The position numbers and the translations under genes were made by a program. From the IMG/VR virus record IMGVR_UViG_3300045020_000054, positions 1-45,132 of that record: DNA of 45,132 bases; one strand, given 5' to 3'. Source of the DNA: a virus. The notes under the pieces were generated by a model. The model saw only the letters and a program-made list of their open reading frames with translations, was not told the DNA's origin and ran no database searches. Positions 2,354-43,269 of this stretch are shown here, one piece after another (the stretch's first letter is position 1; each line of letters begins with the position of its first letter).

Positions 2354-2370
2354 TGTAACAAATTGTTACA
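2354..2370. repeat. 17-bp palindrome copy 1 (TGTAACAAATTGTTACA)
   Basis: This is a perfect inverted repeat with 8-base arms and one central base (A on the plus strand). It lies 5 nt after the stop of the gene ending at 2348 and 16 nt before the ATG at 2387. It is one of eight dispersed copies; see the finding on this family for the combined argument. Confidence 0.9.
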
Positions 2371-2386
2371 TAACCGGGAGAAGTGT

Positions 2387-2629
2387 ATGGTACAGCGACG
2401 GACAAAAGTATCCCTATTCCATTGGAGAAAAACTGTACAAGCCATGTCCTCCGCTATGCGTGATGGGGATAGAAAGGAAGCAAGCAAGCATGCCCATACA
2501 CTTCTCTCCTACCTTACCGAGATGGGACTGCTTGATGACCTGGACAGACAAGGTACTCTACCTACTAGGTGCGATAGGTGCAATGATTTATCTGGTGAGG
2601 CCGAGGCAAAGATGAAGAAAGCCAGTTGA
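2387..2629 (+). CDS. Hypothetical helical protein with CxxC
   Basis: The start chosen is ATG 2387 (MVQRRTKVSLFHW), preceded by CCGGGAGAAG. A TTG eight codons upstream falls inside the palindrome and is less likely. The 80-residue product is basic and helical (WRKTVQAMSSAMRDGDRKEASKHAHTLLSYLTEMGLLDDL). It has one CDRC pair near the C terminus, which would allow metal binding only as a dimer or with other ligands. Function unknown. A sigma70-like promoter overlaps its 3' end (2626-2654). Confidence 0.65.
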   Translation: MVQRRTKVSLFHWRKTVQAMSSAMRDGDRKEASKHAHTLLSYLTEMGLLDDLDRQGTLPTRCDRCNDLSGEAEAKMKKAS

Positions 2630-2654
2630 CATTGCGTTCATAGTGTGATATCGT
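2626..2654 (+). promoter_or_regulatory. Sigma70-like promoter for the gene at 2802
   Basis: A consensus -35 box TTGACA (2626-2631) is separated by exactly 17 bases from a -10 box TATCGT (2649-2654, four of six consensus positions). It sits at the start of a 172-base gap, so it would drive 2802-3155 and perhaps the genes beyond. The start site would fall near 2661, within a small GNRA hairpin. Confidence 0.6.
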
Positions 2655-2780
2655 CGCAAGACGATTGACCATTGACCATTGCATACCGCTACCACTAGGT
2701 AGCTACCAAGAAATGATGTAATATCCGTTTAGCCCATGCTTGTTCATTCCGAGCAAGCGGGCATACCCGCCCATTTGGGC
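2650..2780 (+). promoter_or_regulatory. Structured leader before 2802 (GNRA hairpin, 10-bp palindrome, three small stems)
   Basis: This 172-base gap has no ORF but much dyad symmetry. ATCGTC-GCAA-GACGAT (2650-2665) is a GNRA-loop hairpin, and GGTAGCTACC (2698-2707) is a perfect palindrome. GCTTG/CAAGC (2738-2742 with 2754-2758), GCGGG-CATA-CCCGC (2757-2770) and GCCCA-TT-TGGGC (2769-2780) overlap at their edges and could form alternatives. A tandem ATTGACCATTGACCATTG lies at about 2665-2682, and part of it recurs before 3630. Any regulatory function is inferred from position and symmetry only. Confidence 0.4.
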
Positions 2781-2801
2781 AATCAAACCGAGGAAAGAGA
2801 A

Positions 2802-3155
2802 ATGAGTGAGATTAAGGTTAAGACAGGTAAGGATGAAACTGCCCAGACCGTGACGGTGCAGTATGATATTCCGACCAGCGTAGCTGGCCTTGTAGACAAG
2901 TATGGCGAGGAACAGGTAGTTGCATTGGCAAGCCGTGCGATCACGCTTGCGGTTCAAGCAAATGTTCGCCAGAAAGTTACTGCCGGCGTGACCGGTGATG
3001 CCCTTCAGGCGGCTGTGGATGCATGGGTGCCGGGTGTGCGCGCAGAGTCGGCCAAGAAGTCACCGTATGAACGTGCGGAGTCTGCGCTGGCTCACCTATC
3101 CCAGGATGAGTTGGCAGCCCTGCTCAAGGAATATAAGGGCAAGCACGGGAAGTAA
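2802..3155 (+). CDS. Hypothetical protein with C-terminal LSxxELAxLLKE helix
   Basis: The start is ATG 2802, after GAGGAAAGAGAA, giving 117 residues. The N-terminal part looks like short beta strands (TVTVQYDIP). A helical middle follows (EQVVALASRAITLAVQANVRQKV), then an AEVxxW-like segment, and the C terminus is HLSQDELAALLKEYKG. That last helix resembles the C-terminal helices of the proteins ending at 6778 and 40062. It is transcribed from its own promoter, so it may be abundant and early. I do not know its function. It resembles uncharacterised early phage proteins rather than any enzyme. Confidence 0.75.
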   Translation: MSEIKVKTGKDETAQTVTVQYDIPTSVAGLVDKYGEEQVVALASRAITLAVQANVRQKVTAGVTGDALQAAVDAWVPGVRAESAKKSPYERAESALAHLSQDELAALLKEYKGKHGK

Positions 3156-3171
3156 TAGGAAATACGCTTTC

Positions 3172-3194
3172 GCCCCTTGTGCGTAACAAGGGGC
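3172..3194 (+). terminator. Stem-loop after 2802-3155 (terminator-like, no U tract)
   Basis: GCCCCTTG (3172-3179) and CAAGGGGC (3187-3194) form a perfect 8-bp stem with a 7-base loop, 17 bases after the TAA at 3155. A run of T does not follow, so intrinsic termination would be weak. It may instead protect the 3' end or belong to the larger structure at 3198-3277. Confidence 0.45.
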
Positions 3195-3197
3195 ACC

Positions 3198-3277
3198 TGT
3201 CTACACCCTACCCGTATGAATGGGTTGTTAGGTAACCTCTGACCTAATGATTAATAACAGCAGGTAGGGTGTAGACA
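3198..3277 (+). promoter_or_regulatory. Long inverted repeat leader before 3296
   Basis: TGTCTACACCCTACC (3198-3212) is exactly complementary to 3263-3277, a 15-bp stem closing a 50-base loop. The loop itself contains TTAGGT/ACCTAA and TGTTA/TAACA pairings. The ribosome site of the next gene (AGGAGAGG) starts only a few bases after the right arm, so folding could change access to it. This is a candidate structured 5' UTR or small RNA. No known riboswitch class is evident. Confidence 0.5.
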
Positions 3278-3295
3278 AGTCCTAGGAGAGGAAAT

Positions 3296-3613
3296 ATGTC
3301 AGAAAGAAAAGTATATGTCCTAAGTAAGGGAGGGCATGACTATAGCGATGCGGAACGATTTGGCAAGCTTGTCTTCCTAAATATCCCGAGCTATGCAAAG
3401 TGGGATATTGATCGGTTATATAGGGAATTGCAAGAGGGCATGAAAGATGCCACAAGCGATGACCTATTGATTGTATCACACCTCGCCAGCCATTGTGCTG
3501 TTGCAACCGCAATCCTGACGGAATGGTTTGGCCGGGTAAACTTCCTCATCTTCCGAAAGGATAGGTACGAGGAACACAAACTCATCCTTAATCCTGAGGT
3601 TGAGAACGATTGA
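3296..3613 (+). CDS. Hypothetical alpha/beta protein
   Basis: A 105-residue protein starts at ATG 3296 after CTAGGAGAGGAAAT. The predicted pattern is alternating strands and helices: KVYVLS, DAERFGKLVFLN, RLYRELQEGMK, DDLLIVSHLASHCAVATAILTEWFGRVNFLIF. That fits a small Rossmann-like or flavodoxin-like fold. It resembles conserved hypothetical proteins found beside recombination genes in other phages. No catalytic motif is recognisable. Expression is probably governed by the inverted-repeat leader immediately upstream. Confidence 0.7.
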   Translation: MSERKVYVLSKGGHDYSDAERFGKLVFLNIPSYAKWDIDRLYRELQEGMKDATSDDLLIVSHLASHCAVATAILTEWFGRVNFLIFRKDRYEEHKLILNPEVEND

Positions 3614-3629
3614 CCATTGAGGTATACCG

Positions 3630-4622
3630 GTGAGCATAACACGACAATCCACCTACTACGACAACACAAAGATTTCAACATACAAGGAATGTCCACGAAA
3701 GTACCTAATTCGTCATGTCCTAGATTGGACAACCGAATCGGGCTATAGCATGGATGGCAACGTGACCTTGAAAGCACCAGCTTTGGTATTCGGCGGAGCA
3801 TGGCATGCTGGAATGGATGCAATATGGGGCCTACAAGGCCACAGTGCAAGGGACAAGGCTATTGCCGGTATAACAGCCTTCCTAGACCATTGGACCGGTG
3901 AAGGTTATCCAGCCGAGTTAACAATGGAACAACAAGATGACCTAGGTGCAAGGACGCCAGGTGTGGCGCATGAGATGTTCTTTAACTATGCCACACAAAG
4001 GGAAAGGATGTTGGAGGAGTGTGATGTTATCTCCATCGAGCAGCCTGTTGCAATGCCTTTCCCAAGTCTTGATGATACCTGGTACATCGGAAAGTTAGAT
4101 AAGGTATTCCGGTGGAATGGCCTGCATGTTGGGGAACACAAGACCACCAGTATGTATGCTATCAAAGGTAACTTCCAGCCAGACTGGACGGATAGCTGGG
4201 CAAGTGCCAGTCAGGTCAAGGGATATCAGATGGTTGGTAGTATGTACCATGAAGACCTGCAAGATGTGTGGGTTGACGGTGCTCTGGTACATAAGAAGGT
4301 GCACGATGCTTTCAAATTTGTTCCTGTATCTCACTCCCTACCCTTGCTACAAGAATGGATTATTGATACAGGAAGATGGATCCTATCAATACAGTCTGAC
4401 TTGAAGGAAATGTCAGAAGTTGGTAGCCTGGAAACAGGCGCCTTCAAGAGGAATGAAGATCAGTGCTTCGGAAAGTATAGCCGGTGCCCTTTCCTAAATA
4501 TCTGCGCGACGACAAGGGACCCAACAAAGTTGAAGGAACCACCTCCTGGTTATATTAAGGAAAAGTGGGAACCTTTCGATGAACTTGGCATAGACAAGCT
4601 GGTGCAAGATGGACAGGGATGA
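3630..4622 (+). CDS. PD-(D/E)XK nuclease, Cas4/RecB-like with predicted Fe-S cluster
   Basis: The start is GTG 3630 (MSITRQSTYY), preceded by TTGAGG, giving 330 residues. The motifs are those of the Cas4/AddB-type exonuclease family. C21 sits in ECPRKY and H59 in WHAGMD. D157 lies in GKLDKV, E169 and K171 in GEHKTT, and Q195xxxY199 is the QxxxY box. C279, C286 and C292 near the end (CFGKYSRCPFLNIC) together with C21 would hold a 4Fe-4S cluster. The expected role is ssDNA/dsDNA end resection in recombination or replication. The nearby Sak4-like ATPase and ssDNA-binding protein support this. It overlaps the next gene by 14 bases. Confidence 0.88.
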   Translation: MSITRQSTYYDNTKISTYKECPRKYLIRHVLDWTTESGYSMDGNVTLKAPALVFGGAWHAGMDAIWGLQGHSARDKAIAGITAFLDHWTGEGYPAELTMEQQDDLGARTPGVAHEMFFNYATQRERMLEECDVISIEQPVAMPFPSLDDTWYIGKLDKVFRWNGLHVGEHKTTSMYAIKGNFQPDWTDSWASASQVKGYQMVGSMYHEDLQDVWVDGALVHKKVHDAFKFVPVSHSLPLLQEWIIDTGRWILSIQSDLKEMSEVGSLETGAFKRNEDQCFGKYSRCPFLNICATTRDPTKLKEPPPGYIKEKWEPFDELGIDKLVQDGQG

Positions 4623-4851
4623 TCAAGGAAACACAAGGCCTTGGCAAGTACGTATGTATTGGCGACACCAAGGTCATCATACCCACATGCGAGTATTTAC
4701 TGGTCCGCTTGGCAATAGTTCCTTCTGTGGTCATGTTATAGTAAGTACGGCGGAGTGGGAAAAGTTTAAGGAAACAATGCCAGGCGTGGTATTCATCCTT
4801 GAACAAGACAACGGCAATTACTTCAAAGAGACAGGAGTGACAATACCATGA
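4609..4851 (+). CDS. Hypothetical small protein in recombination operon
   Basis: An 80-residue protein starts at ATG 4609 inside the end of the nuclease gene and stops at 4849-4851, overlapping the next ATG (4848). It is basic at the N terminus (RPWQVRMYWRHQGHHTHMRVF) and has a beta-like core (CGHVIVSTAEWEKFKETMPGVVFILEQ). The alternating strands and one helix suggest a small alpha/beta domain. I recognise no family. Tight coupling on both sides suggests that it acts together with the nuclease and the following proteins. Confidence 0.65.
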   Translation: MDRDDQGNTRPWQVRMYWRHQGHHTHMRVFTGPLGNSSFCGHVIVSTAEWEKFKETMPGVVFILEQDNGNYFKETGVTIP

Positions 4852-5174
4852 AACTGGATAAGCTAGCAATTACCTGGAATAGTTATACCTTTGAGAACGA
4901 TGGTATACCGCCAGAATCTTATGGTGGTAAAGTTGTGTTTAGGGATGCACAAGGCAACCTAACACAAATTACACTTAGCCCTTCTGCTGTGGATCAGATA
5001 ATGCAGACAGTAGCAGCTGAGGTAGCCAACAATGCAAAACGCATGCTGGCAGAAATGACAAAAGAATCTGTCAGGGATTCAGCTCGACCGAAAAGCATTG
5101 CACCGCCTGCGGAAGTCGAAGAGGCAGAATTTACAGAAGCACCCAAGTCTAATGACGACATGGTGCCATTCTAA
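4848..5174 (+). CDS. Hypothetical protein with SSB-like acidic C-terminal tip
   Basis: A 108-residue protein starts at ATG 4848 (ATGA overlap with the upstream stop) and ends at a TAATG junction with the Sak4-like gene. Residues 1-50 look like beta strands (KLAITWNSYTF, GGKVVFRDAQGNLTQITLS). A helix follows (VDQIMQTVAAEVANNAKRMLAEMTKE), then a disordered acidic tail ending SNDDMVPF. The last residues mimic the conserved bacterial SSB tip (DDDIPF) that docks partner proteins. It could be a recombination accessory factor that competes for SSB partners. The domain itself is not recognised. Confidence 0.7.
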   Translation: MKLDKLAITWNSYTFENDGIPPESYGGKVVFRDAQGNLTQITLSPSAVDQIMQTVAAEVANNAKRMLAEMTKESVRDSARPKSIAPPAEVEEAEFTEAPKSNDDMVPF

Positions 5175-5977
5175 TGCCCAACGCAAAAGACCTTCCCGCA
5201 GATGACAGCCACCGTATCCTTGTGCTAGGGGATACAGGTAGTGGCAAAAGCACACAGCTTCTTACACTTCCAGGCAAGAAGTTTGTGTATTGTTTTGATG
5301 CAAACGCCAAACTTGCCTTCAGGGGGTACGACGTAGACTTTGAGGAGTTTATGCCGGACCGCCTTAACCTATCCGTAAAGAGCATGGCGAAGGATAAAGG
5401 CGATAAAACAACAAACCACCAGAACACAACATACCTGGAATGGGAAAAGGACTTTGATACAAAGTATAAGGATGGATTCTTTGACCAGTATGATGTTGTA
5501 GCAATTGATAGTGGTACAACCTTACTGTCCCTCATTATGGATCGAGTGCTAACGATCAACGGACGTGGCGGCAGCTGGCCCCAACAAGATGACTGGGGTC
5601 CACAAATGAATGTTTTTACCAACATCATTCGTACCTTCACAAGTATGGGTAAAACATTCTATATGACCGGGCATCTGGAGCTAAAGCAGGACAAGGTGTC
5701 CGGTCGTATCTTCCGACAGCCTATTATGACTGGTCAACTTCGCAGCCGTATTCCCCTCCTTTTCAGTGATATCTTCTTTGCGGAGGTTAGGAATGACGAT
5801 GGGAAGGGGAAGATGGTACATACCTTCCAGACTGTGCCAGATAAGTTGACTACAACTATCCGCACCAGTATCAAGGGCCTTGATCCATTCGAGGATGTAT
5901 CCCTCGATTTCTCCAAGCCCTTAGAAGAACAGGGACTCGGACTTCTCCTAAAGATGGAGAGGGAAGGGAAACTGTAA
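5174..5977 (+). CDS. Sak4-like RecA-fold ATPase (AAA_24), single-strand annealing/recombination
   Basis: A 267-residue P-loop ATPase. The Walker A motif GDTGSGKST lies at residues 19-27 and the Walker B strand is YDVVAIDS at about 106-113. An arginine-rich segment (GQLRSRIPLLFSDIFFAEV) and a C-terminal domain follow. Length and motif order match the Sak4/AAA_24 phage family, which binds ssDNA and promotes annealing together with a cognate ssDNA-binding protein. Such a protein is encoded next at 6037. Sak4 proteins act on ssDNA at replication forks or breaks. The gene begins in a TAATG junction. The second palindrome follows 9 bases after its stop. Confidence 0.82.
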   Translation: MPNAKDLPADDSHRILVLGDTGSGKSTQLLTLPGKKFVYCFDANAKLAFRGYDVDFEEFMPDRLNLSVKSMAKDKGDKTTNHQNTTYLEWEKDFDTKYKDGFFDQYDVVAIDSGTTLLSLIMDRVLTINGRGGSWPQQDDWGPQMNVFTNIIRTFTSMGKTFYMTGHLELKQDKVSGRIFRQPIMTGQLRSRIPLLFSDIFFAEVRNDDGKGKMVHTFQTVPDKLTTTIRTSIKGLDPFEDVSLDFSKPLEEQGLGLLLKMEREGKL

Positions 5978-5985
5978 AGCGCCTA

Positions 5986-6002
5986 TGTAACAATTTGTTA
6001 CA
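5986..6002. repeat. 17-bp palindrome copy 2 (TGTAACAATTTGTTACA)
   Basis: Perfect 8-base arms with T at the centre on the plus strand. It lies 8 nt after the stop of the Sak4-like gene and 34 nt before the ATG of the ssDNA-binding protein gene, so it separates two functionally linked genes that would otherwise be contiguous. Confidence 0.9.
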
Positions 6003-6036
6003 ATGGCATACAAGCGAACCAAACGAGAGAACGAAA

Positions 6037-6495
6037 ATGCCTTTTATCAACGCAAACCTAGATGATGTCCAGGAACAGAAGGCCGCCCCAAATGGTAGTT
6101 ATGAACTCCAAATCACCGGAGCACAGAATACCGTAACGGGTGAAAAGAGCAAGAATCCTGGCGCCCCAATGATTAAGGTTACCTTGGGGTTCACCGACCC
6201 GGAAGTTAATGCTCCGGTTATTACCCATTACATTACCCTGCCGTATGAAGGTGATGACAACACCGCATTCAAGCTCCTTTTGTTGAAGCGGTTTATGGGA
6301 TTGTTCGGCCTGACCTGGTCCAACGAGGGTATCGATACCGAAGCCCTTGCCTTTGATATGGTGGGTCGCACTGCCATTGTAGAGGTTGGCCAGACAGAAC
6401 CAAACGATAACGGTGACATCTTCAACAACATCAAGGTACCACGTCTCCGTGATGAAGGTACTGGTAAGGGTGCCCGAGGCCGTAAGCGGGCCTAA
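6037..6495 (+). CDS. DUF669-like single-stranded DNA-binding protein
   Basis: The start chosen is ATG 6037 (MPFINANLDDVQ), after AACGAGAGAACG. An upstream TTG in the same frame falls in the palindrome. The product has 152 residues. The pattern NGSYELQITGAQ, then MIKVTLGFTDPE, then ITHYITLP, and later VGRTAIVEVGQTE, is that of the DUF669-type OB fold found beside Sak4-like ATPases in phages. A basic tail ends GKGARGRKRA. The expected role is to coat ssDNA and partner the ATPase at 5174. A strong terminator-like hairpin follows the gene. Confidence 0.7.
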   Translation: MPFINANLDDVQEQKAAPNGSYELQITGAQNTVTGEKSKNPGAPMIKVTLGFTDPEVNAPVITHYITLPYEGDDNTAFKLLLLKRFMGLFGLTWSNEGIDTEALAFDMVGRTAIVEVGQTEPNDNGDIFNNIKVPRLRDEGTGKGARGRKRA

Positions 6496-6504
6496 CGTAA
6501 GGCT

Positions 6505-6532: not shown

Positions 6533-6547
6533 CTGTGGAGTAGGAGA

Positions 6548-6778
6548 ATGCAATTGTCTGACCTGGTCAAACCCATCGAGGAACAGACCGACGAAGAACT
6601 ACGCGAGCGATTGCAGGCATTACGTTCCCGTCGAGAGATGGAACGACCTGCGAAGGCTAAGCATGTACAGAAGGCACAGAAGAAGGAGGTTAGGAAAAAG
6701 ATTTCCCCAATCCAAAAGATGCTTGAACAGTTATCACCTGAAGAAATTGCCCAACTATTGAAGGAGCATGGGGAATGA
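6548..6778 (+). CDS. Small basic helical protein with C-terminal LSPEEIAQLLKE motif
   Basis: The start is ATG 6548, following GTAGGAGA, giving 76 residues. It is almost entirely charged helix: LVKPIEEQTDEELRERLQAL, then a lysine/arginine-rich stretch (AKHVQKAQKKEVRKK), then MLEQLSPEEIAQLLKEHGE. The C-terminal motif resembles those of the proteins ending at 3155 and 40062. An adaptor or DNA-binding role is possible, but nothing is proven. The TGA overlaps the start of the ParB-methyltransferase gene (ATGA), so the two are probably co-translated. Confidence 0.72.
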   Translation: MQLSDLVKPIEEQTDEELRERLQALRSRREMERPAKAKHVQKAQKKEVRKKISPIQKMLEQLSPEEIAQLLKEHGE

Positions 6779-8106
6779 AATACAAAATGAAGGTTGTTAA
6801 GTTATCAGATATTGATGCCTCAAATAGGTATCGTGAAGATATGGGAAACATCGACGAACTTGCAGAAAGTATCAGGGAGAAGGGACTCATACAACCTATC
6901 TGCATAAGCACGGATAATAAGCTGTTAGCTGGTGGCCGCCGTTTTGCCGCATGCACCAAGCTTGGTCTGTTAGATGTTCCTGCTTTAGTGAGGGAAAGCC
7001 AAAGCGAGGTAGATTCACGCGAGATAGAATTAATGGAAAACATCCACCGGAAGGATATGACATGGCAGGAACAAGCCAAGTTGACGGCAGAGATTCATAG
7101 ACTGTATGCGAAGAACGACCCGAACTGGTCGCAACGCAAGACAGCCCAGCTTATCGAACAGAACCCAATGAATGTCACTCGCGCGCTGCGCCTTGATGCA
7201 GCCATGAAGGCTAACCCAGGAATCACCCTCTGCAAGACGGCCGATGACGCACAGAAGGTAATTAAGAAGGCTGAGGAAAATGCCATCGTAGCTGAGATGG
7301 CTAGAAGGCAGCAGGGATTAGTAAAACAGGTTGAATCAGGAGCAGTCAATGGACGTATTGAGAAAGGCCTCGCCATTGCCTGGAAAATGGCCGATGGGAA
7401 CTATAACATCGGAGACGTCTTCGAAGGAATGGCAGGTCTCAAAACAGATGGGGTCGTGGACTTTATTGAGTGCGATCCGCCTTATGGGGTTGACCTGGGA
7501 ACTCTGTCTGACCGGACTGATAAAGGGGCAGACCTTCGGGGCCGTGATAACGATTACCACGAAATTGCCGATGCCCAGTATCCAGAGTTCCTCTCTAAAC
7601 TTACCAAAGAATTGTATCGAGTGGCTGGAAAGAACAGCTGGATGGTATTCTGGTTTGCCTTCCGATGGTATCCAGAAGTTATTTCCTCACTTACTAGCGC
7701 TGGATGGAAACCGGACCTTGTACCTGCAATGTGGATCAAAGATACAGGTCGAACGCCACGCCCAGATATTCTTCTTGGACGATCTTACGAACCTTTTATC
7801 ATTGCAAGGAAGGGCAACCCAACTGTCGTAAAACAAGGAACATTGAATACCTTCATTGTTAATCCTGAAAAGAACAAGTATCATCCTGCACAGCGTCCCG
7901 TACAACTCTTGGAAGATATCATCAACACCTTCCTAGACGAGGGTCGTGGTACGGTATTTGTACCATTCCTCGGCAGTGGTGCAACCCTTCGAGCTTGTTA
8001 TAACCTAGGCCATCGTGGCTTTGGTTATGATACCAATAATGAGTATAAGGATAAATTCCTTCTTGCTGTCGATGAAGACGCAAAGAGGCTCCTTACCAAG
8101 GAGTGA
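6775..8106 (+). CDS. ParB/Srx-like N-terminal domain fused to DNA methyltransferase (N4/N6 class)
   Basis: A 443-residue fusion. Residues 5-110 match a ParB/sulfiredoxin fold, with the GGRR box in LAGGRRFAAC (51-60) and the helix ENIHRKDMTWQEQA (89-102). A helix-turn-helix-like stretch follows (SQRKTAQLIEQNPMNVTRAL, 119-138). Residues about 205-443 are an adenine/cytosine-N4 methyltransferase. DPPY (234-237) precedes the SAM-binding FLGSG (398-402) and GFGYDTNNEY, the beta-class order. The expected role is sequence-specific DNA methylation, for protection or regulation. It is coupled upstream (ATGA) and overlaps the next gene by 4 bases. No cognate restriction enzyme is visible. Confidence 0.88.
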   Translation: MKYKMKVVKLSDIDASNRYREDMGNIDELAESIREKGLIQPICISTDNKLLAGGRRFAACTKLGLLDVPALVRESQSEVDSREIELMENIHRKDMTWQEQAKLTAEIHRLYAKNDPNWSQRKTAQLIEQNPMNVTRALRLDAAMKANPGITLCKTADDAQKVIKKAEENAIVAEMARRQQGLVKQVESGAVNGRIEKGLAIAWKMADGNYNIGDVFEGMAGLKTDGVVDFIECDPPYGVDLGTLSDRTDKGADLRGRDNDYHEIADAQYPEFLSKLTKELYRVAGKNSWMVFWFAFRWYPEVISSLTSAGWKPDLVPAMWIKDTGRTPRPDILLGRSYEPFIIARKGNPTVVKQGTLNTFIVNPEKNKYHPAQRPVQLLEDIINTFLDEGRGTVFVPFLGSGATLRACYNLGHRGFGYDTNNEYKDKFLLAVDEDAKRLLTKE

Positions 8107-9119
8107 CCATGTTTATACAGACACAGGAAAGGAGTCAACTGCCAGGGAGTGGTAAGAAAGAAAGTCGCATTGCGATTGTCGGTGACTACACTGATGGTTT
8201 TGATGCGAATGCCAGAAAGCCTTTTAGTGGACCTGGCGGTACGGTGTTGGAAAACTGCCTGCATAATGCCGGACTGATCCGCGCAGAATGTTACTTCACT
8301 AACCTATTCAAGATCCAGACAAGTAACCCCATGCGATTGTATGGGGAGAAGAATAATGGCAAGTTTTACTTCACGGATGAGGGGCAGGAATATGTGGAGG
8401 CACTCCGGGAGGAATTAAGCCAGGTTAATGCCAACATATTCCTGGCTTGTGGCCCCGCAGCCTTTGCCGCACTATGCGACCTGGGACACCTTAGCATGTA
8501 CCGAGGGTATGTATTTGAAAGTACTCTGTTGCCTGGTCGAAAGGTTATTCCAACATTCCATCCGAAACAAGCCATGCGTGGTATGTATACATACCGCTAC
8601 CTTATAGCAGCAGACCTGCGAAAGGTGAAGGAAGAAAGTGAATTTCCTGGGATTCGTAGACCTGCAAGGACATTGGTGTATAGTTATGCCAGCGTACAAG
8701 AAGCGATCGATTGGCTTGACTTCCACATTGACAAAGCGCAGGTTGGCTTTGACATTGAGGTCATCAACTACGAGGTATCCTGCATCAGTTTCGCGTCTAC
8801 ACCGGACATTGCCTGTGTCATTCCGATTGCTGGCAGATGGAACCTTGACGAAGAATTACAGGTATGGCGGGGTATTCAGCGTGTCCTTGGCAATCCTTCG
8901 AGTACGAAAATCGTACAGAACGGTATGTTCGATATCCCCTTTCTTCTTACTCGCAATGGAATCGTTATTAGGGGACCAATCCATGACACGATGGTTGGAC
9001 ACTCTATCCTCTACCCAGAGCTTCCGAAAAGCTTGGGCTTCCTTGGGGGTATCTATTGCGGAAGCCAGGAGTATTGGAAGGACACGGTAAGGTTTAAGAA
9101 CATTAAGGATGAGTCATGA
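8103..9119 (+). CDS. UDG-like domain plus 3'-5' exonuclease domain (front part of a split DNA polymerase)
   Basis: A 338-residue protein. Residues about 20-180 follow the family 4/5 uracil-DNA glycosylase pattern: IAIVGDYTD in place of VGEAPG, KPFSGPGGTVL, YFTNLFK, CGPAAFAAL and TFHPKQAMR. Residues about 190-320 are a DnaQ/PolA-type exonuclease, with Exo I GFDIEV (D217, E219), Exo II QNGMFDIPF (D277) and HDTMVGHSILYPELPKS. The Exo III motif is absent and appears at the start of the protein at 9531. Together with that protein it gives about 852 residues, the usual size of phage UDG-Exo-Pol fusions. It is therefore probably one half of a two-subunit polymerase. Confidence 0.82.
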   Translation: MTMFIQTQERSQLPGSGKKESRIAIVGDYTDGFDANARKPFSGPGGTVLENCLHNAGLIRAECYFTNLFKIQTSNPMRLYGEKNNGKFYFTDEGQEYVEALREELSQVNANIFLACGPAAFAALCDLGHLSMYRGYVFESTLLPGRKVIPTFHPKQAMRGMYTYRYLIAADLRKVKEESEFPGIRRPARTLVYSYASVQEAIDWLDFHIDKAQVGFDIEVINYEVSCISFASTPDIACVIPIAGRWNLDEELQVWRGIQRVLGNPSSTKIVQNGMFDIPFLLTRNGIVIRGPIHDTMVGHSILYPELPKSLGFLGGIYCGSQEYWKDTVRFKNIKDES

Positions 9120-9298: not shown

Positions 9299-9301
9299 CT
9301 T

Positions 9302-9538
9302 ATGTCCTTAGAAAAATCAGTAACGAGAGATTGTGCCTTCGATGTGAACAAGGAAGGAAAGTATTACTTTACAATCAAGGAAGGTAATAGCACAATCTTC
9401 CAATCAAAGTTGTACGATACCTCAGAAGATTGCACAAGGGATGGTATTGGTATGTTGGATATCCTACATGAAAGGAATCCCATCCGAACTGAGTACGTAC
9501 CATCCAACGCAGAGTACGGGGTGAAGTACAGTGGATGA
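9302..9538 (+). CDS. Small DUF1508/YegP-like protein inserted in the polymerase locus
   Basis: A 78-residue protein starts at ATG 9302, three bases after the previous stop. GKYYFTIKEGNSTIFQSKLY followed by a helix (SEDCTRDGIGMLDIL) resembles the UPF0339/YegP unit, in which a two-strand hairpin with an xFQSxxY motif precedes a helix. The match is by eye only. The function of that family is not established. Its TGA overlaps the GTG start of the polymerase domain at 9531 by 8 bases, so it is coupled to it. Confidence 0.6.
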   Translation: MSLEKSVTRDCAFDVNKEGKYYFTIKEGNSTIFQSKLYDTSEDCTRDGIGMLDILHERNPIRTEYVPSNAEYGVKYSG

Positions 9539-11075
9539 AACCTTCCTAAAGTATAGTGCCCTTGATTCTGCTTGTATGGTAGAAATACATGATAAGTTTT
9601 GGCAAGACCTGGAAGAACAAGGGTACATGCCTACCTACCAGATGACACTTTCCCTTATGGAAGTTTTGCAGTTTATGCAGACTAGGGGAATGAAAGTCAA
9701 CCACACACTGCTTAATGAAACGAAAAGGGAAATCATACAGAGCCAGAAAGAAAAGCAGGCAGAACTAGATGAGTTGGTAGGCCATCCCCTAAACGTCAAT
9801 AGCAGCAAACAATGCCAGGCATACTTCTATGTCGAACTTGGACTTGCCCCTATCTTCAATCCCAAGACAAAAAAAGTCACCACCGACGACATGGCAATGC
9901 AGCGTCTTGTACGTGGGACCGCTAAGCAACCTGGCATACGTCAAGCTAAACTGGTACAAGAAATCCGAGGATTGTCCAAGCTATACAGCACATACCTTGA
10001 CATTAGCTTTGATGAAGATGACCGCATGCGGGGTTCCTATAATCCACGAGGGACTAAGTTTGGTCGGTTATCCAGCAGTAAAACGGTTTTTGATACCGGA
10101 ATGAATTTCCAAAACCTGCCACCGGAATTCAAGAAGTTCCTTGTGGCAGATGATGGATACATCCTGATTGAGGTCGATAAAAGGCAAGCAGAATGGGTTG
10201 TAGTGGCGTATAACGCCGACGATCCAAATATGATTAATGCCATAAAGGAAGGTAAGGACGTGCATGCGTATACCGCAAGCCTAATGTTTGACCTTCCAAT
10301 CAACCTAATCGAGTATGAAAATGAGTTGATTGGTCACAGTACAAATGCCGAGCAAATTCATATTGCCCGTATGAACGACGAACAGATTAGGAAGGTATAC
10401 ACACCTCGATGGATCAGAGGTATGTCACTTCGACAGTGTGGGAAGAAGTCAAACCATGGACTAAACTACGATGAAGGTTACCGTAACTTCGCCTTGCTAA
10501 ACGAGATGGAGGAAAAGGAAGCCCGGAGAATTGTGGAGATGTACCATGAAATCTATCCAGGCATCAGAAAGTCTTACGAAGTCACCAAGCGCCAATTGCA
10601 GAAGGATCGGACCCTTACTAATTGTTTCGGGCGTAAGGTCAGGTTCATGGGTGAGTGGGGTAATGATCTTTGGAAGTCAGCCTATTCCTTCATCCCACAA
10701 AGCACCGTTGTTGACTCTCTCAACCAGGGTATGGTCCGTATCTATAACGATACGCTCATTACCAAAACGTGGAATGTCGATATCTTGGCGCAAGTACATG
10801 ACTCCATCTTGATGCAGATACCGATAAAGGTTGCCAGAAATCAGGGAGCTTTTGAAGCCTTCATGCAGAAGGTTAATGAGTATACCAGCCCAACCGTGTC
10901 ATACAACGGCAATGAGTTCAAGATTGCCACAGATGCCAAGATTGGATTCAATTGGGGGGGTAAGCATAAGGTCAATAATGTGGAAGGAATGCGAGACCTG
11001 AAATCATATCAGGATGTTATTGACCTTCTCTCCTTAAGGGATACCAATGAGTCGGGAACTCTCGAACTGGCTTGA
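9531..11075 (+). CDS. Family A DNA polymerase, polymerase domain with residual Exo III motif
   Basis: The start is GTG 9531 (MDETFLKYSALD), giving 514 residues. The first 20 residues carry the Exo III motif (YSALDSACMVEI, Y8 and D12), which belongs to the exonuclease domain encoded at 8103. Motif A is IEVDKRQAEWVVVAY (D216), motif B is GKKSNHGLNY (about 304-313) and motif C is QVHDSIL (D424). Serine replaces the usual glutamate of HDE in motif C, a variant I believe also occurs in phage PolA proteins. The enzyme would replicate phage DNA. It needs the upstream protein for a complete exonuclease site. It overlaps the next gene by 29 bases. Confidence 0.9.
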   Translation: MDETFLKYSALDSACMVEIHDKFWQDLEEQGYMPTYQMTLSLMEVLQFMQTRGMKVNHTLLNETKREIIQSQKEKQAELDELVGHPLNVNSSKQCQAYFYVELGLAPIFNPKTKKVTTDDMAMQRLVRGTAKQPGIRQAKLVQEIRGLSKLYSTYLDISFDEDDRMRGSYNPRGTKFGRLSSSKTVFDTGMNFQNLPPEFKKFLVADDGYILIEVDKRQAEWVVVAYNADDPNMINAIKEGKDVHAYTASLMFDLPINLIEYENELIGHSTNAEQIHIARMNDEQIRKVYTPRWIRGMSLRQCGKKSNHGLNYDEGYRNFALLNEMEEKEARRIVEMYHEIYPGIRKSYEVTKRQLQKDRTLTNCFGRKVRFMGEWGNDLWKSAYSFIPQSTVVDSLNQGMVRIYNDTLITKTWNVDILAQVHDSILMQIPIKVARNQGAFEAFMQKVNEYTSPTVSYNGNEFKIATDAKIGFNWGGKHKVNNVEGMRDLKSYQDVIDLLSLRDTNESGTLELA

Positions 11076-12458: not shown

Positions 12459-12475
12459 TGTAACAAATTGTTACA
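12459..12475. repeat. 17-bp palindrome copy 3, between convergent arms
   Basis: TGTAACAAATTGTTACA, a perfect match. It lies 16 nt after the plus-strand stop at 12442 and 4 nt after the minus-strand holin stop at 12480. It is the only copy with converging genes on both sides, which argues against a purely promoter-linked role for the family. Confidence 0.9.
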
Positions 12476-19423: not shown

Positions 19424-19440
19424 TGTAACAAATTGTTACA
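19424..19440. repeat. 17-bp palindrome copy 4
   Basis: TGTAACAAATTGTTACA, perfect. It lies 7 nt after the minus-strand stop at 19448 and 11 nt upstream of the start (19412) of the giant virion protein. It separates two ejection-type genes within the late arm. Confidence 0.9.
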
Positions 19441-28012: not shown

Positions 28013-28029
28013 TGTAACAATTTGTTACA
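28013..28029. repeat. 17-bp palindrome copy 5
   Basis: TGTAACAATTTGTTACA on the plus strand, a perfect match. It lies 4 nt after the stop of the small basic virion gene (28034) and 70 nt upstream of the start at 27942, next to the switch-like hairpins. Confidence 0.9.
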
Positions 28030-28033
28030 ATGC

Positions 28034-28219
28034 TTATTTCCTTTTCTTGCCACGTTTGCCATGGTAGTTTTTCTGTCCTGGTGCAGCCTGAGCCAATCGG
28101 GCCATTTTACCAATAACGCCACCAGGAACACCGGCTGCCTTCATCTGAGCAGCCCTACCACCATGACCCAACTTGTTACTCTTGCCATGAAACTTTCCAG
28201 TTTTACGGATAGTTGCCAT
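28034..28219 (-). CDS. Small basic virion-associated protein
   Basis: A 61-residue protein, strongly basic, with many K, R and H. The stretch KTGKFHGKSNKLGHGGRAAQMKAAGVPGGVIGKMARLAQAAPG... (first half quoted in part) resembles small basic proteins encoded after phage capsid genes, with the characteristic GHGGRAAQ and GVPGGVIG segments. It may bind packaged DNA or another capsid component. Function unproven. Confidence 0.65.
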   Translation of the reverse strand: MATIRKTGKFHGKSNKLGHGGRAAQMKAAGVPGGVIGKMARLAQAAPGQKNYHGKRGKKRK

Positions 28220-33771: not shown

Positions 33772-33791
33772 TTGAGAGCCCGCGCGAGTGT

Positions 33792-33864: not shown

Positions 33865-33881
33865 TGTAACAATTTGTTACG
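33865..33881. repeat. 17-bp palindrome copy 6, one mismatch
   Basis: TGTAACAATTTGTTACG: G replaces the final A, the only deviation among the eight copies. It lies 4 nt after the large terminase stop (33886) and 93 nt before the portal start. Confidence 0.85.
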
Positions 33882-33885
33882 ATAC

Positions 33886-38048: not shown

Positions 38049-38057
38049 TACCGTTCT

Positions 38058-39292: not shown

Positions 39293-39744
39293 ATCGAAAG
39301 TATGAAGGATCGTGTGCGTGTACTGTAACGCATACAAGATGTCAACACAAGGAATGCTAGTTATGGAAGGAATGGCAATGGGATCATCATACCTAGAAGT
39401 TTGGAATTTCTCGCGGGTAGGATGGGGCCTTTTTGCTTTTTCTGCGCGTGTGGATTTTGCCTCCCCTAGGCAATTATTGCCAAGGCAAATATATGCTGGC
39501 ACATTGTTGCCTGATGCATGTTTGCCAATCTGATTACTGCGTAAGCAGTTGTATCATTCAGGTATGTGACGGTGGTGTTAGTGTACTTGTTGGTATAGTA
39601 ATGGATGGTGCTATGCAGCAATTAGGTTTAGAATTCTTTACACTTCTTTACATACCTAAACATGCACAACCGCCGATGTGTGCTAGTATTGACTCACTTG
39701 CAGGCATTCCGTCTGACAAGCTTAACCATTGAGGAGTCATAGTC
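39175..39744. other. Divergent region between late and early arms
   Basis: Apart from the possible gene at 39116-39292, this 570-base stretch has no convincing ORF. It separates leftward late genes from rightward early genes, so both arms probably start here. It contains a GGCAAT-T-ATTGCC near-palindrome (about 39469-39481), an ACTGC-GTAA-GCAGT GNRA hairpin (about 39535-39548) and an extended -10 sequence at 39591-39599. Open but unsupported frames on the plus strand (39364-39533 and 39601-39732) might be decayed coding sequence. Confidence 0.55.
39591..39599 (+). promoter_or_regulatory. Extended -10 promoter for the early arm
   Basis: TGGTATAGT gives a TGn extension and a five-of-six -10 hexamer (TATAGT, 39594-39599). 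No -35 box is present, as is acceptable for extended -10 promoters. A transcript would begin near 39606 and reach the ribosome site of the gene at 39745 after about 140 nt. Confidence 0.42.
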
Positions 39745-40062
39745 ATGAAAACTGAAACATTTGTAACTGCCAGCACGAAAGTGGGTGGGATTGATCACAA
39801 GTCAAATGTGACGATCGACTGGACTGGTGTAACCGATGATGAAATGCAAGCGCTGGCACAACGCAGCCTGATCATCCGTAAGCAAAACGCCGACAGGACC
39901 AAGGGTGTCATACCCGCCAGTTCGTACACCATCAAGGCGAAGGAGTACGTGATCGGGGCGCGTGTACCGGCACAGCCGGTTGACATTCGTGACCTATTGG
40001 CGAAGTTGACACCAGAGGAGGCGCTTGCCTTGTTGGACGAAGTAGTTAGTAAGGCAAGATAA
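39745..40062 (+). CDS. Hypothetical early protein with C-terminal LTPEEALALLDE helix
   Basis: The start is ATG 39745, after GAGGAGTCATAGTC, giving 105 residues. The N-terminal beta-like part (TKVGGIDHKSNVTIDWTGVTDDEMQALAQRS) is followed by a basic segment (IRKQNADRTKG), VPAQPVDIRDLLAKLTPEEALALLDEVVSKAR. The last helix resembles the C termini of the proteins at 2802-3155 and 6548-6778. It is the first gene of the rightward arm. I do not recognise a fold. A shared partner for the three C-terminal helices is an inference. Confidence 0.7.
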   Translation: MKTETFVTASTKVGGIDHKSNVTIDWTGVTDDEMQALAQRSLIIRKQNADRTKGVIPASSYTIKAKEYVIGARVPAQPVDIRDLLAKLTPEEALALLDEVVSKAR

Positions 40063-40082
40063 TACCTACACGCGGGAGGTCG

Positions 40083-40099
40083 TGTAACAAATTGTTACA
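40083..40099. repeat. 17-bp palindrome copy 7
   Basis: TGTAACAAATTGTTACA, perfect, 20 nt after the stop of the gene ending at 40062. It opens the longest gene-free stretch after the divergent region. Confidence 0.9.
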
Positions 40100-40464
40100 A
40101 CACCTTGCTATGCAAGGATTATATGCCGCTGCTAGTACCTGCTGTATGGCTATTGGCGGCGGTATACCTTTTGTTGGACGTTGTGTATGTTGTATGTTTT
40201 ATGTAATGTCATTGCTTGTATAAACCCCCCATCCCCTCGTGACCCGTACAAAAAAATAGTTAAAAAATAAAAAAAAATATATAAAAAAAGAATTAAGAGA
40301 AAGGAGGGCATATACGGTTCCAACATCATGGGATAGATTACACACCAACTTACATATGACAACACAACGTTCTACATGTCTGCTACAATCAGACGTCGAG
40401 CAGCGATCTATGCTGCATCGCATCAATTCCCTATAACCTAGTACCACAAGCTACGGAGAAAACC
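40100..40464. other. Noncoding, A-rich region; origin candidate
   Basis: This stretch has no ORF longer than 26 codons. A C-rich patch (AACCCCCCATCCCCTC, about 40223-40238) is followed by a nearly pure A/T tract at 40250-40299, with A on the plus strand. It ends in a perfect AAGGAGG (40300-40306) with no following start. Small stems (CCTTG/CAAGG near 40103; GTCTG/CAGAC near 40378) and a TATAAA (40219-40224) are present. An easily melted tract beside ordered sites suits a replication origin or a noncoding RNA. Neither is proven. Confidence 0.4.
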
Positions 40465-40674
40465 ATGTCTGACATCTCATATAGCAGCATCGGTCGGGAA
40501 ATTGTAATGAGGGTTGATCTTTCTAAACTTTCAGGAAGGAGTAAATCAAACCTCCTATATGACCTCCTTGAAATGACTGGTGTAGATTATGATTCTATCA
40601 AGGCATGTAATACCGTGGATGAGGTAGAACAACTCCTTAGTAATGGTCTCCTCAAATTGTGGGAAGAGAAATGA
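40465..40674 (+). CDS. Hypothetical small protein
   Basis: A 69-residue protein with a start at ATG 40465 after ACGGAG. It is helical and mixed-charge (IVMRVDLSKLSGRSKSNLLYDLLEMTGVDYDS; DEVEQLLSNGLLKLWEEK). It is a candidate small early regulator or host-takeover protein by position and size. I recognise no domain. Confidence 0.6.
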   Translation: MSDISYSSIGREIVMRVDLSKLSGRSKSNLLYDLLEMTGVDYDSIKACNTVDEVEQLLSNGLLKLWEEK

Positions 40675-40684
40675 GGTAAAAGCC

Positions 40685-40870
40685 ATGCAAATATTAGAAG
40701 GCTACAAGGTAGTTATAGGTATTACAGATTGGACGGACTTAGTCAAAAAACTTTACCCAGAAGCAGCCATAGAAACTAACGGAAATCACCACTATGCTGT
40801 ATTAAATGGGAAAGATGTTGGGTTTTATGGAAGTATCCTTGGTTATGGTAGGGTAAAGGAAAGCGAATGA
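40685..40870 (+). CDS. Hypothetical small protein
   Basis: A 61-residue protein. The start chosen is ATG 40685 (MQILEGYKVV), after GAGGTAAAAGCC; an earlier ATG at 40643 lies inside the preceding gene. Short strands and one helix (VVIGITDWTDLVKKLYPEAAIE; HHYAVLNGKDVGFYG) suggest a small beta-alpha-beta unit. Function unknown. The stop overlaps the next start (ATGA). Confidence 0.6.
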   Translation: MQILEGYKVVIGITDWTDLVKKLYPEAAIETNGNHHYAVLNGKDVGFYGSILGYGRVKESE

Positions 40871-41418
40871 AACCTGGTATGGTCACCCAGATTCGAGTCA
40901 ATACGAAGGATTGCTTAGCAATCCTTGACTTGATGGGAGTGCTTGGTGTAGATCCGTATGATGGCAGGTCATTTGCGCAGTGTGTATCCCTGGCGCTGTC
41001 ATCCATGTTGCAAACCATGCGGGATCGGTCAGTTATACCGAGCGAGGAAGATGGTTTCCAATTCCTCAATCGCATGGCACCATTCCTCAATAGTGGTAAT
41101 AACAAGAGGAAGTACATTATGTCCTCTTCACTATCTGACCGAATGGGCCAGCAGAGTGTATCTGTTAAGTTGCCACAACATGAAGTTAAGAATCCCGGGC
41201 AATATGTGCCGGAAACAGTCACGCGACTACAACCAACGGGATGGACAGAACGGGGTGCAACAAGCACTGCCGCTACCCCCATGTTGTTGGATGAGGAAAC
41301 AAAGGTTATGCTTGCCGAGGAGATGAAAATCCTTGACGACAAGAGGAATTCTGTCAACACGTTAACACCGGAGGAACAGACACGCTATGACGAACTCAAT
41401 AGAATCCTCTTCTCCTGA
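40867..41418 (+). CDS. Hypothetical protein, 183 residues
   Basis: It starts at ATG 40867 in an ATGA overlap. The N-terminal half is helical with an antisigma- or HTH-like look (VNTKDCLAILDLMGVLGVDPYDGRSFAQCVSLALSSMLQTMRDR). A disordered S/T/P-rich linker follows, then a charged C-terminal helix (LLDEETKVMLAEEMKILDDKRN; PEEQTRYDELNRILF). The layout could suit a DNA- or RNA polymerase-binding regulator. This is conjecture, because no motif is decisive. Confidence 0.62.
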   Translation: MKPGMVTQIRVNTKDCLAILDLMGVLGVDPYDGRSFAQCVSLALSSMLQTMRDRSVIPSEEDGFQFLNRMAPFLNSGNNKRKYIMSSSLSDRMGQQSVSVKLPQHEVKNPGQYVPETVTRLQPTGWTERGATSTAATPMLLDEETKVMLAEEMKILDDKRNSVNTLTPEEQTRYDELNRILFS

Positions 41419-41659
41419 TGCCAGGACATACTGGTACGGGACATACCATGACGTTAGGTACTATAGATATCGAATAGGGGTACTGCAAGAAGATGCCTCT
41501 GATATAACAATTGATAACCTAATAGAAACCTTAAGTATAGCAGAAAATTCATGCCTACTTGGGGCGGTATATAAACCAATAAGGCTAGGGAAGTGGGCTA
41601 TGTACGGACAATTTCCTAAATGGTTTAGCAGAAGGTATGCGATAGGAAACTGCCCCTAA
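41387..41659 (+). CDS. Hypothetical small aromatic-rich protein
   Basis: A 90-residue protein starts at ATG 41387, overlapping the previous gene by 32 bases. It contains many Y, W and R residues (TYWYGTYHDVRYYRYRIGVLQ; KWAMYGQFPKWFSRRYAIG) and a central helix (DNLIETLSIAEN). No family is recognised. The overlap is longer than most here, so the start may be slightly different, but the strand and end are well supported. Confidence 0.58.
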   Translation: MTNSIESSSPDARTYWYGTYHDVRYYRYRIGVLQEDASDITIDNLIETLSIAENSCLLGAVYKPIRLGKWAMYGQFPKWFSRRYAIGNCP

Positions 41660-41671
41660 CGGTGTGCAAGT

Positions 41672-41744
41672 AATACCCACTAATGGAATAGTGGGTATTG
41701 CTGGACCACCAAGTGACGTAAGGACACGTCTGCGCAACCAGCAA
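41672..41744 (+). promoter_or_regulatory. Two-hairpin structured leader before 41776
   Basis: AATACCCACTA (41672-41682) pairs exactly with 41689-41699, an 11-bp stem with a 6-base loop. A second element has TTGCTGG (41698-41704) paired with CCAGCAA (41738-41744) and an inner GACGT/ACGTC stem (41715-41719 with 41726-41730). The first and second stems share two bases at 41698-41699. No T tract follows. It may be an attenuator-like leader for the gene at 41776. A five-codon ORF (ATG 41762) ends in ATGA overlap with that start. Confidence 0.5.
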
Positions 41745-41775
41745 CCCCACAAACAACAAACATGAGGATACCTAG

Positions 41776-42198
41776 ATGAAAATGTATAAGATTGACCCGG
41801 CGAAAAAGGAAATCACGTCCATCGAATACAATGGGACGTACGATGGGATGCAACCCCACATCAAGTATGAATGCCTTGACCATGCCTGTATGACTCAGGC
41901 AAGGGATATGGTATTCGTCAACGACGTAGGTCTGATCGATGGCAGTGAGGCAACCGACGGGGCGTGGTGGTTCCTCCATGACAACGGAACATGGGAGAAG
42001 TTCGTGGGGGAAGCTTTGTACTGGGGTACGGATGGAGAGGATAACGCAGATCCATCCTTGACAATCGAAGAACTCCGTGCCCGAGTGTGCTATACTGCAC
42101 CGAAGGGTTGGGTTGAGCCGGATTACACGCCACTAATCATCAGTTTCGATACCCCGGAAGAATTGTTGGCCTACCTGCAAGGTACTGATAGGAGTTAA
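41776..42198 (+). CDS. Hypothetical protein, paralogous at its N terminus to 42717-43247
   Basis: A 140-residue protein. The N terminus MKMYKIDPAKKEITSIEYNG parallels MKAYIIDPVKRTIEMVEYDG of the later gene. The rest is aromatic and acidic (FLHDNGTWEKFVGEALYWGTDGEDNAD; PEELLAYLQGTD). A small beta-sheet N-terminal domain is likely. Such MKxYxIDPxxxxIxxxEYxG proteins occur in several phage early regions, with unknown function. The structured leader precedes it. Confidence 0.65.
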   Translation: MKMYKIDPAKKEITSIEYNGTYDGMQPHIKYECLDHACMTQARDMVFVNDVGLIDGSEATDGAWWFLHDNGTWEKFVGEALYWGTDGEDNADPSLTIEELRARVCYTAPKGWVEPDYTPLIISFDTPEELLAYLQGTDRS

Positions 42199-42202
42199 GG
42201 CT

Positions 42203-42412
42203 ATGCCTGCCATGCCCAACAGCTTCAAGAACGACCTGATTGCCAAGTACACAGAGCAATCCCTTGCAGAAGCTGCACAAGCGGCCGCAGCGCAGCAGGA
42301 CACCGAGCATACATACAAAGTTCGGTATTCCTGGAAAAATGGCGTTTGGATTGTGGCAGTGATGGATAAGAATGGTGGCCTGTATGGCTACCTCCATCCA
42401 ATCAAACAGTAG
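42203..42412 (+). CDS. Hypothetical small protein
   Basis: A 69-residue protein whose ATG at 42203 lies 5 bases after the preceding stop. The N-terminal half is an Ala/Gln-rich helix (QSLAEAAQAAAAQQDTEH) and the C-terminal half contains two strands (KVRYSWKNGVWIVAVMDKNGGLYG). Function unknown. A short linker separates it from the next gene (42421). Confidence 0.58.
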   Translation: MPAMPNSFKNDLIAKYTEQSLAEAAQAAAAQQDTEHTYKVRYSWKNGVWIVAVMDKNGGLYGYLHPIKQ

Positions 42413-42420
42413 GGGTTCCC

Positions 42421-42720
42421 ATGCCGATATACCACTCCAGCGTATACGACATATTCGTGCCTAGGCATATTGGTGCTACCAGTAATCATGTCTTGGTACG
42501 ATTGACACTTGTGCACGATCGGACAGATATCGATATACGAATGGAACCCCTTCTGCAGGCGGCAACAGAATGCCTATCACAATGGCCACAACTGCCGGAC
42601 AAGTGTGCCATTACCCTCTCCATAACAGACATCCTTCTCCACATCATCGAGCAAAACCTCGAACTTGTGGAATCATGGCGCTTTGAACGCGACCAACATA
42701 CAGTGGAGGTACCAACATGA
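42421..42720 (+). CDS. Hypothetical protein
   Basis: A 99-residue protein starting at ATG 42421. It seems to combine strands (HVLVRLTLVHDRTDIDIRME) with helices (LLQAATECLSQWPQLPD; DILLHIIEQNLELVESWRFER). It overlaps the next gene by 4 bases (ATGA) and is probably co-translated with it. No recognised family. Confidence 0.6.
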   Translation: MPIYHSSVYDIFVPRHIGATSNHVLVRLTLVHDRTDIDIRMEPLLQAATECLSQWPQLPDKCAITLSITDILLHIIEQNLELVESWRFERDQHTVEVPT

Positions 42721-43247
42721 AAGCCTACATCATCGACCCGGTCAAGCGTACCATCGAAATGGTGGAATATGATGGCAGCGCAAAAGGAACTATGTCCTTC
42801 ATGCCTTACAATTTTGATATGTGCACCCCAATGGAAATCAATGATCACAATGACCTCATGATAATCATACAGCCTAAAATGGCGAGCCTGCTCCTAGGCA
42901 TTGATGCTGTCCAAGTAGGAAGGGAATTTGGCTACTTTGGCTATGTTTGTGGTAAGTGTGATGGGTTCCACAAGATTATTGGTACAGCTCTACTACTTGG
43001 CAGGGATACAGCGAAGGAAAATCCCGACGACGATTATGTGGTACTAGCAGACCCTTACATTTCCATGAAATGCCTGAGAGATAGCATCCATTGGGGACGA
43101 TTCTTACAAGTAACAGAGGAAGAGTCAGAAGAATTGGCGGAAGGAAGAATGCCAGAAAGCCTAAAAACCCAGGATGTGAATGATGCTAAATCGGCAGTAA
43201 CAGTCGGTCTGGAACTTGGCCGCATTGGCTCCCGTAGCCTTCACTAA
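42717..43247 (+). CDS. Hypothetical protein with MKxYxIDPxxxxIxxxEYxG N terminus (paralog of 41776)
   Basis: A 176-residue protein. The N terminus resembles that of 41776-42198. It continues with a mixed alpha/beta body containing FGYVCGKCDGFHKIIGTALLLGRD, in which two close cysteines may bind metal, and ends with a polar C terminus (SAVTVGLELGRIGSRSLH). A duplicated gene family is suggested by N-terminal likeness only. It is followed, 5 nt after the stop, by the eighth palindrome. Confidence 0.62.
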   Translation: MKAYIIDPVKRTIEMVEYDGSAKGTMSFMPYNFDMCTPMEINDHNDLMIIIQPKMASLLLGIDAVQVGREFGYFGYVCGKCDGFHKIIGTALLLGRDTAKENPDDDYVVLADPYISMKCLRDSIHWGRFLQVTEEESEELAEGRMPESLKTQDVNDAKSAVTVGLELGRIGSRSLH

Positions 43248-43252
43248 ACCAC

Positions 43253-43269
43253 TGTAACAAATTGTTACA
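43253..43269. repeat. 17-bp palindrome copy 8, touching the HNH gene start
   Basis: TGTAACAAATTGTTACA, perfect, 5 nt after the stop at 43247. The ATG of the HNH endonuclease gene follows immediately at 43270, so the palindrome occupies the place of its ribosome-binding region. Confidence 0.9.

Follow-up and report, generated by a model that had tools for sequence, protein, structure and literature searches.

In the crystal structure of Caulobacter ParB bound to parS, R173 is a specificity residue and N178 contacts the DNA (PMC7383237). KorB of plasmid RK2 is described as a ParB-family CTPase clamp that slides after loading at its operators on this small replicon (PMC11790492), and Bacillus Noc as a ParB paralog that uses dispersed 16-bp palindromes as nucleation sites and from there spreads to adjoining DNA (PMC8429893). 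Fusions of ParB to an N6/N4 methyltransferase are frequent in phages according to Kaljevic et al. (2025), where anti-defence or phage-host interaction is suggested (PMC12704722). The stoperators of cluster A mycobacteriophages are also short scattered sites whose specificity changes with the cognate protein; they are asymmetric, mostly lie in one orientation to transcription, and are bound by the immunity repressor of a temperate phage (PMC6550527). Here we analyse the virus record IMGVR_UViG_3300045020_000054 of IMG/VR (45,132 bases with a 164-bp end repeat; this whole stretch is called the window), which carries eight dispersed 17-bp palindromes and encodes a ParB-methyltransferase at 6775-8106. 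Comparison of related phages indicates that protein and palindromes are very probably a cognate pair, the palindromes being predicted parS-like binding sites.

Palindromes in the window and in related phages

The whole window was searched with TGTAACAAWTTGTTACA, allowing up to 3 mismatches. Exactly eight matches and no others were obtained, seven of them exact copies and one (33865) with a single mismatch. Each palindrome has 8-bp arms around one central A or T, which is found on either strand, and the flanks are not conserved. This architecture and all eight positions had been given in the original prediction and were reproduced. A count in shuffled genomes had been proposed there as a check; dinucleotide-shuffled versions of the window gave a mean of 0.14 matches, and no shuffle reached eight. 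The predicted parS-like sites are the following:

2354-2370, unstranded: site 1, TGTAACAAATTGTTACA, at a junction, 5 nt past a stop
5986-6002, unstranded: site 2, at the Sak4/SSB junction, syntenic in several relatives
12459-12475, unstranded: site 3, at the convergent junction after the primase/helicase block
19424-19440, unstranded: site 4, at the junction of p422 and the 1890-aa tail gene, syntenic in many relatives
28013-28029, unstranded: site 5, at the junction of the major capsid gene and p260, syntenic
33865-33881, unstranded: site 6, with one mismatch, at the TerL/portal junction, syntenic in nearly all site-bearing relatives
40083-40099, unstranded: site 7
43253-43269, unstranded: site 8

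Because of its end repeat, the window was read as circular. The sites are spread over the whole genome, all at gene junctions, and neighbours on the circle lie 3.2-8.6 kb apart with a coefficient of variation (CV) of 0.31. Random placement gives a CV of about 0.85 (P = 0.0012); the spacing, initially described as fairly regular, is more even than was claimed.

About 60 TerL relatives of this phage were found in IMG/VR, and almost none among named phages. These relatives are metagenomic records, and the first 25 kb of the window had no nucleotide match among known phages. We scanned the relatives for recurrent palindromes without reference to the sequence of the window. Many of them carry their own set of dispersed 17-bp palindromes with inner bases that differ by phage; the half-sites are TGTAAA, TGTACA, CGTAAC, TGTTCA, TGTTCC, TGTCCC, TGTGCC and TGTTTC, and the centres are mostly AAWTT-like. 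Nearly all site-bearing relatives have one copy a few bases past the TerL stop, and the p422/tail, capsid/p260 and Sak4/SSB junctions recur as site positions. Position is kept, while the two arms change as mirror images of each other and every copy within a genome changes with them. This concerted change at fixed positions is as expected if a single diffusible protein recognises every site. The motif had been expected at syntenic gene ends of related phages, and what is present there is the same design in an altered but self-consistent sequence.

A stop codon lies 4-20 nt from each of the eight window sites, as first noted. At 28013 this is the stop of a small unnamed open reading frame (ORF) ending at 28034; for the major capsid gene, whose stop is 200 nt off, the statement fails. 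Nor does a position just after the stop hold as a rule, since the sites of the relatives, which are mostly at junctions, lie from 0 to >100 nt from a stop and a few are inside called ORFs. This position looks like a result of compact genomes.

G005 (L070/L071), G003 (L068) and G006 (L072/L073) have a different structural module and exactly the same TGTAACAAWTTGTTACA sites, and G005 and G006 share the replication block. The identical sites and the shared block suggest that the ParB-site system travels with the replication module.

The early region of Alcaligenes phage vB_Af_QDWS535 (L148, OK172329, 25207-48091) contains thirteen copies of another 16-bp palindrome, about ATCCTAATATTAGGAT, and no ParB-methyltransferase was seen there. 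In Aphanizomenon phage Yong-DA (L268, ON073792), GTTCAGACGTCTGAAC occurs five times, at 3727, 15525, 19738, 31876 and 38138; this record has ParA and ParB genes, polysaccharide enzymes and no annotated structural genes, and looks plasmid-like rather than like a phage.

Probable pairing of the ParB-methyltransferase with the sites

Gene presence and absence in site-bearing and site-free relatives singles out the product of 6775-8106, whose features are:

6775-8106, plus strand: ParB N-domain, ParB helix-turn-helix (HTH) and N6/N4 DNA methyltransferase in one 443-aa protein, the proposed site binder
6826-7047, plus strand: ParB_N domain, residues 18-91 (Pfam PF02195, 3.5e-13), with Box II (AGGRR) and Box III (ELMENIHRKD), the latter to residue 94
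7132-7212, plus strand: modelled ParB-type HTH, residues 120-146 (helices 120-127 and 131-146), with a profile match to ParB/Spo0J/Noc structures
7165-7185, plus strand: positions 131-137 of the recognition helix (PMNVTRA), co-varying with bases 4-6 of the site
7423-8052, plus strand: methyltransferase domain, residues 217-426, with DPPYG (motif IV) and VPFLGSG (motif I, binding S-adenosylmethionine, SAM)

A profile search matched ParB, Spo0J and Noc through the HTH. With the predicted structure (mean predicted local distance difference test score, pLDDT, 79.6), a structure search returned beta-class methyltransferases (M1.HpyAVI, CcrM) together with ParB/Noc. The DPPY motif, the SAM-binding FxGxG motif and the fold are those of a beta-class N6/N4 enzyme. 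Boxes II and III are conserved across members as LLAGGRR and ELMENIHRKD.

Orthologs of 43-50% identity were found in eleven site-bearing relatives (G001, G002, G005, G006, G011, G016, G018, G020, G028, G042 and G043). In G012, whose neighbouring replication proteins are 48-67% identical, a 60-aa ORF replaces the fusion gene in an otherwise syntenic locus, and there are no sites. Two negative controls, G023 and G046, encode 27-28% homologs in which the recognition-helix region is unmatched, and have no sites. A dispersed palindrome family was likewise not found in Vibrio phage eugene 12A10, which has a ParB domain and no methyltransferase.

In order to compare protein and site, we used 80 fusion-encoding loci, 28 of which had <92% mutual identity and palindromes called blind to the protein. 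The blind search gave a score of at least 2.0 in 22/80 real loci and 0/160 shuffles, and of at least 1.6 in 29/80 and 5/160, respectively; 16 TerL-related control loci scored 1.2 or less. An 8-residue segment was then slid along the 443-residue protein with correction for overall distance (partial Mantel test). The six best segments all fell within residues 127-139 (partial r up to 0.485; 0/5000 permutations), and across the 28 phages no other part of the protein is tracked by the half-site sequence as well as the recognition helix (131-137). When single residues were ranked among the 443, with the weak family L257 dropped, base 4 placed residue 132 first and 131 second, base 5 placed 132 first, and base 6 placed 136 second. 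Residue 131 aligns with R173 of Caulobacter ParB and residue 136 with N178. Helices of type PMN/PMT go with AAC or AAA/ACA, VGG/VGA with TCA, KSA/KSD with CCC, and IAT/VAT/IGS with TTC or TCC.

Among held-out loci, some of them near-duplicates, the site predicted from a near-matching helix was present in 9/19, versus 15 of ~470 with other specificities. Desulfofustis phage OP947158, reached by a separate route, encodes a 35% identical fusion with helix KSS and has eight CCC-type sites (CV 0.36), in agreement with the KSA/KSD prediction. On the strength of the orthologs, of G012 and of the helix co-variation, we read the sites as parS-like and as bound by the ParB-methyltransferase that the phage itself encodes. 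This protein had been one of the binders considered in the original prediction, and as a predicted binder it is strongly supported by the co-variation and the held-out loci. The choice between DNA and RNA function had been left undecided there; DNA recognition is now supported, since the sites co-vary with a DNA-binding helix.

It had also been suggested that the sites punctuate the 3' ends of genes, which would make them RNA hairpins acting as terminators or processing signals. A 7-8 bp stem is possible in the transcript and the sites follow stop codons, but the stems are short and AU-rich with a 3-nt loop, and their folding energies range from ordinary (z -0.3) to modest (z -3.2). The G+C-rich stem and adjoining T-run of an intrinsic terminator are missing. 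Hairpins would also leave unexplained both the sequence identity at all sites and the co-variation with the protein, and we regard this reading as extremely improbable.

It is hardly conceivable that the sites are operators of some other regulator, of phage or host, instead of the ParB-methyltransferase. Site-bearing phages also frequently encode the small protein family at 39745-40062; it is missing from some of them, however, and has no recognised HTH, while a host factor would not shift its specificity phage by phage with the ParB helix. The proteins at 39745-40062 and 2802-3155 belong to related small families (105 and 117 aa) with several copies in most relatives and no known domain. Both were considered as binder and rejected, being widespread, not universal, and without a recognised HTH. 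The window 17-mer also fits the Bacillus TnrA/GlnR box. Readings of it as a TnrA/GlnR box or an NtcA box were rejected because bases 4-6 vary between phages.

Possible function of the pair

The ParB-methyltransferase would form a symmetric dimer that binds each 17-bp palindrome by means of its recognition helix, loads there, closes into a nucleotide-gated clamp and moves out along the DNA, like ParB, Noc and KorB. With about eight loading sites, one every ~5-6 kb, the clamps could reach the entire phage genome, bringing the fused methyltransferase in cis to phage DNA and not to host DNA. Even coverage is expected of sites that each serve several kb of DNA, whereas promoter-bound operators need none. 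By analogy with the ParB family, clamp loading with genome-wide coverage is probable. Nearly every member retains DPPY and SAM motif I intact, an indication of methylation in cis; this may be the main output, although we hold that view with some doubt. Taken as a whole, parS-like pairing, clamp loading with coverage, and delivery of the methyltransferase form an explanation that we consider likely on balance. A stricter version, in which the methyltransferase is itself the sliding clamp, its dimers entering only at the evenly spaced sites and methylating the whole phage genome in cis, is offered more tentatively. If true, it would mean that the phage marks or protects its own DNA and not the host's, and that joint divergence of site and helix keeps the system orthogonal to co-infecting relatives.

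In favour of this explanation, spacing was more even than random in 12/12 contigs (P < 0.06 in 11/12); the phages are related, so the tests are not independent and combined P values exaggerate the effect. Several observations weigh against the explanation. About 50 of the 80 ParB-methyltransferase loci yielded no recurrent palindrome. Short fragments and distant homologs make up many of these, but the 20-kb loci L217, L231, L233, L259 and L266, which are not short, lack one as well. Box II reads GGRR in most members instead of the canonical GERR, a change of glutamate to glycine, and nucleotide use may differ from that of canonical ParB. The canonical C-terminal ParB dimerisation domain is missing, with the N6/N4 methyltransferase in its place. 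Finally, in the G011 clade (L200 = G011, L197, L202 and L204) 10-13 of the 34 conserved methyltransferase residues are gone, against 0 of 20 in the ParB part. DPPY has become DPPF or DAPF, ~26 residues are deleted after DPP(F), ParB and HTH are fully conserved, and eight sites remain. Since the sites outlast the decay of the methyltransferase, methylation is not essential to site function in this clade. Judging from these sequences, methylation cannot be the whole function, and the putative ParB clamp must serve some other purpose in this clade, which may be KorB-like regulation or structural coating.

The same protein-site pair could act mainly as a transcription regulator, its junction-loaded clamps reaching nearby promoters or blocking elongation in the manner of KorB on RK2 or of L5-type stoperators, with the methyltransferase secondary. 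The sites are at gene junctions and often syntenic, and the clade with a decayed methyltransferase retains them; silencing by KorB extends to promoters as far as 1.5 kb off (PMC11790492). However, the sites are not confined to positions upstream of operons, since early and late blocks both contain them and one is at a convergent junction; their even spacing is unexpected for promoter-linked operators, and the 69 window proteins include no recognised repressor-like, KorA-like or lysogeny protein. Regulation as the main role is therefore unlikely in our view.

In a structural role, a ParB coat would organise or protect phage DNA through nucleoid-like compaction, exclusion of host nucleases or aid to replication or packaging, with the methyltransferase serving as dimeriser or gate and not as an enzyme. 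Even genome-wide sites, their retention beside a degenerate methyltransferase, and the replacement of the ParB dimerisation domain by the methyltransferase all agree with this, and beta-class methyltransferases such as CcrM are dimeric. The intact DPPY and SAM motif I argue against it, as catalysis appears to be normally kept, and we consider a coat improbable.

The presence of ParB and parS-like sites also brings to mind the centromeres of a phage-plasmid with a ParABS-type partition system, and some plasmid replicons do have dispersed ParB sites. No ParA or integrase family was recognised among the 69 window proteins, nor any repressor family, although divergent repressors could escape, and the LG(K/R)GL motif that binds ParA is absent from the N-terminus of the protein as read directly from its translation. 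Among the best 80 matches in ~85,000 species genomes, the full fusion was found in only two small contigs of metagenome-assembled genomes (MAGs), the rest matching the ParB part only, so this phage does not commonly occur as a plasmid or prophage. With no integrase, ParA or repressor found and the fusion nearly absent from bacterial genomes, partition and immunity are both unlikely, and partition is very improbable indeed.

The window is ~95% coding by a simple gene caller. PHROG and Pfam matches include a family-A DNA polymerase (two ORFs), a Sak4-like annealing protein, SSB, an exonuclease and a primase/helicase, as well as TerL, portal, major head protein, lysozyme and holin. The polymerase is split into separate exonuclease and polymerase ORFs (8109-9119 and 9531-11075), an arrangement kept in relatives. 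A 76-aa ORF with a weak Nif11 match (6548-6778) stands immediately before the ParB-methyltransferase gene and is kept in relatives, including the one without the fusion.

Comparison with known systems

The protein resembles the ParB/Noc/KorB family in its predicted N-terminal CTPase-fold domain with Boxes II and III and in an HTH of the palindrome-reading type. The marks of a ParABS system, namely a ParA partner and motif, a C-terminal dimerisation domain and 16-bp parS, are missing. With chromosomal ParB-parS (Spo0J, Caulobacter ParB) it shares the ParB N-domain with Boxes II and III, an HTH that reads a TGT...ACA palindrome, and covarying residues that align with the contact residues R173 and N178. 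It differs in that the phage sites are 17-bp odd palindromes whereas parS is the 16-bp TGTTTCACGTGAAACA; the nearest, in G028, is TGTTTCAYSRTGAAACA, which is nearly parS. The phage also has ~8-10 sites over its genome, no ParA or ParA-binding motif, and a methyltransferase in place of the dimerisation domain.

KorB at its operators is likewise a ParB-family protein on a small replicon, and clamp formation and sliding of the phage protein would extend the likeness. KorB is a co-repressor with KorA and has no enzyme domain, and the phage has no recognised KorA-like partner. Noc shares the ParB-type protein and the dispersed palindromes; it is chromosomal, membrane-binding and without a methyltransferase. 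The likeness to lambda operators and L5 stoperators drawn in the original prediction is superficial. Stoperators are similar in number per phage, are scattered and follow their cognate protein in specificity, but the sites described here are palindromes with the central A or T on either strand and a ParB-type binder, in a phage where no repressor-like or integration gene was recognised.

The fusions surveyed in December 2025 have the identical domain arrangement, are common in phages, and have targets and role left open in the accessible text, where no cognate DNA sites are reported (PMC12704722). The present finding supplies their predicted target sites, although earlier reports in subscription journals are possible. 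Dozens of natural variants in which site and recognition helix evolve together amount to a specificity code around known ParB contact residues. This opens up the function of the fusion to tests with short oligonucleotides, and suggests that ParB-type clamps may treat a whole phage genome instead of marking one centromere.

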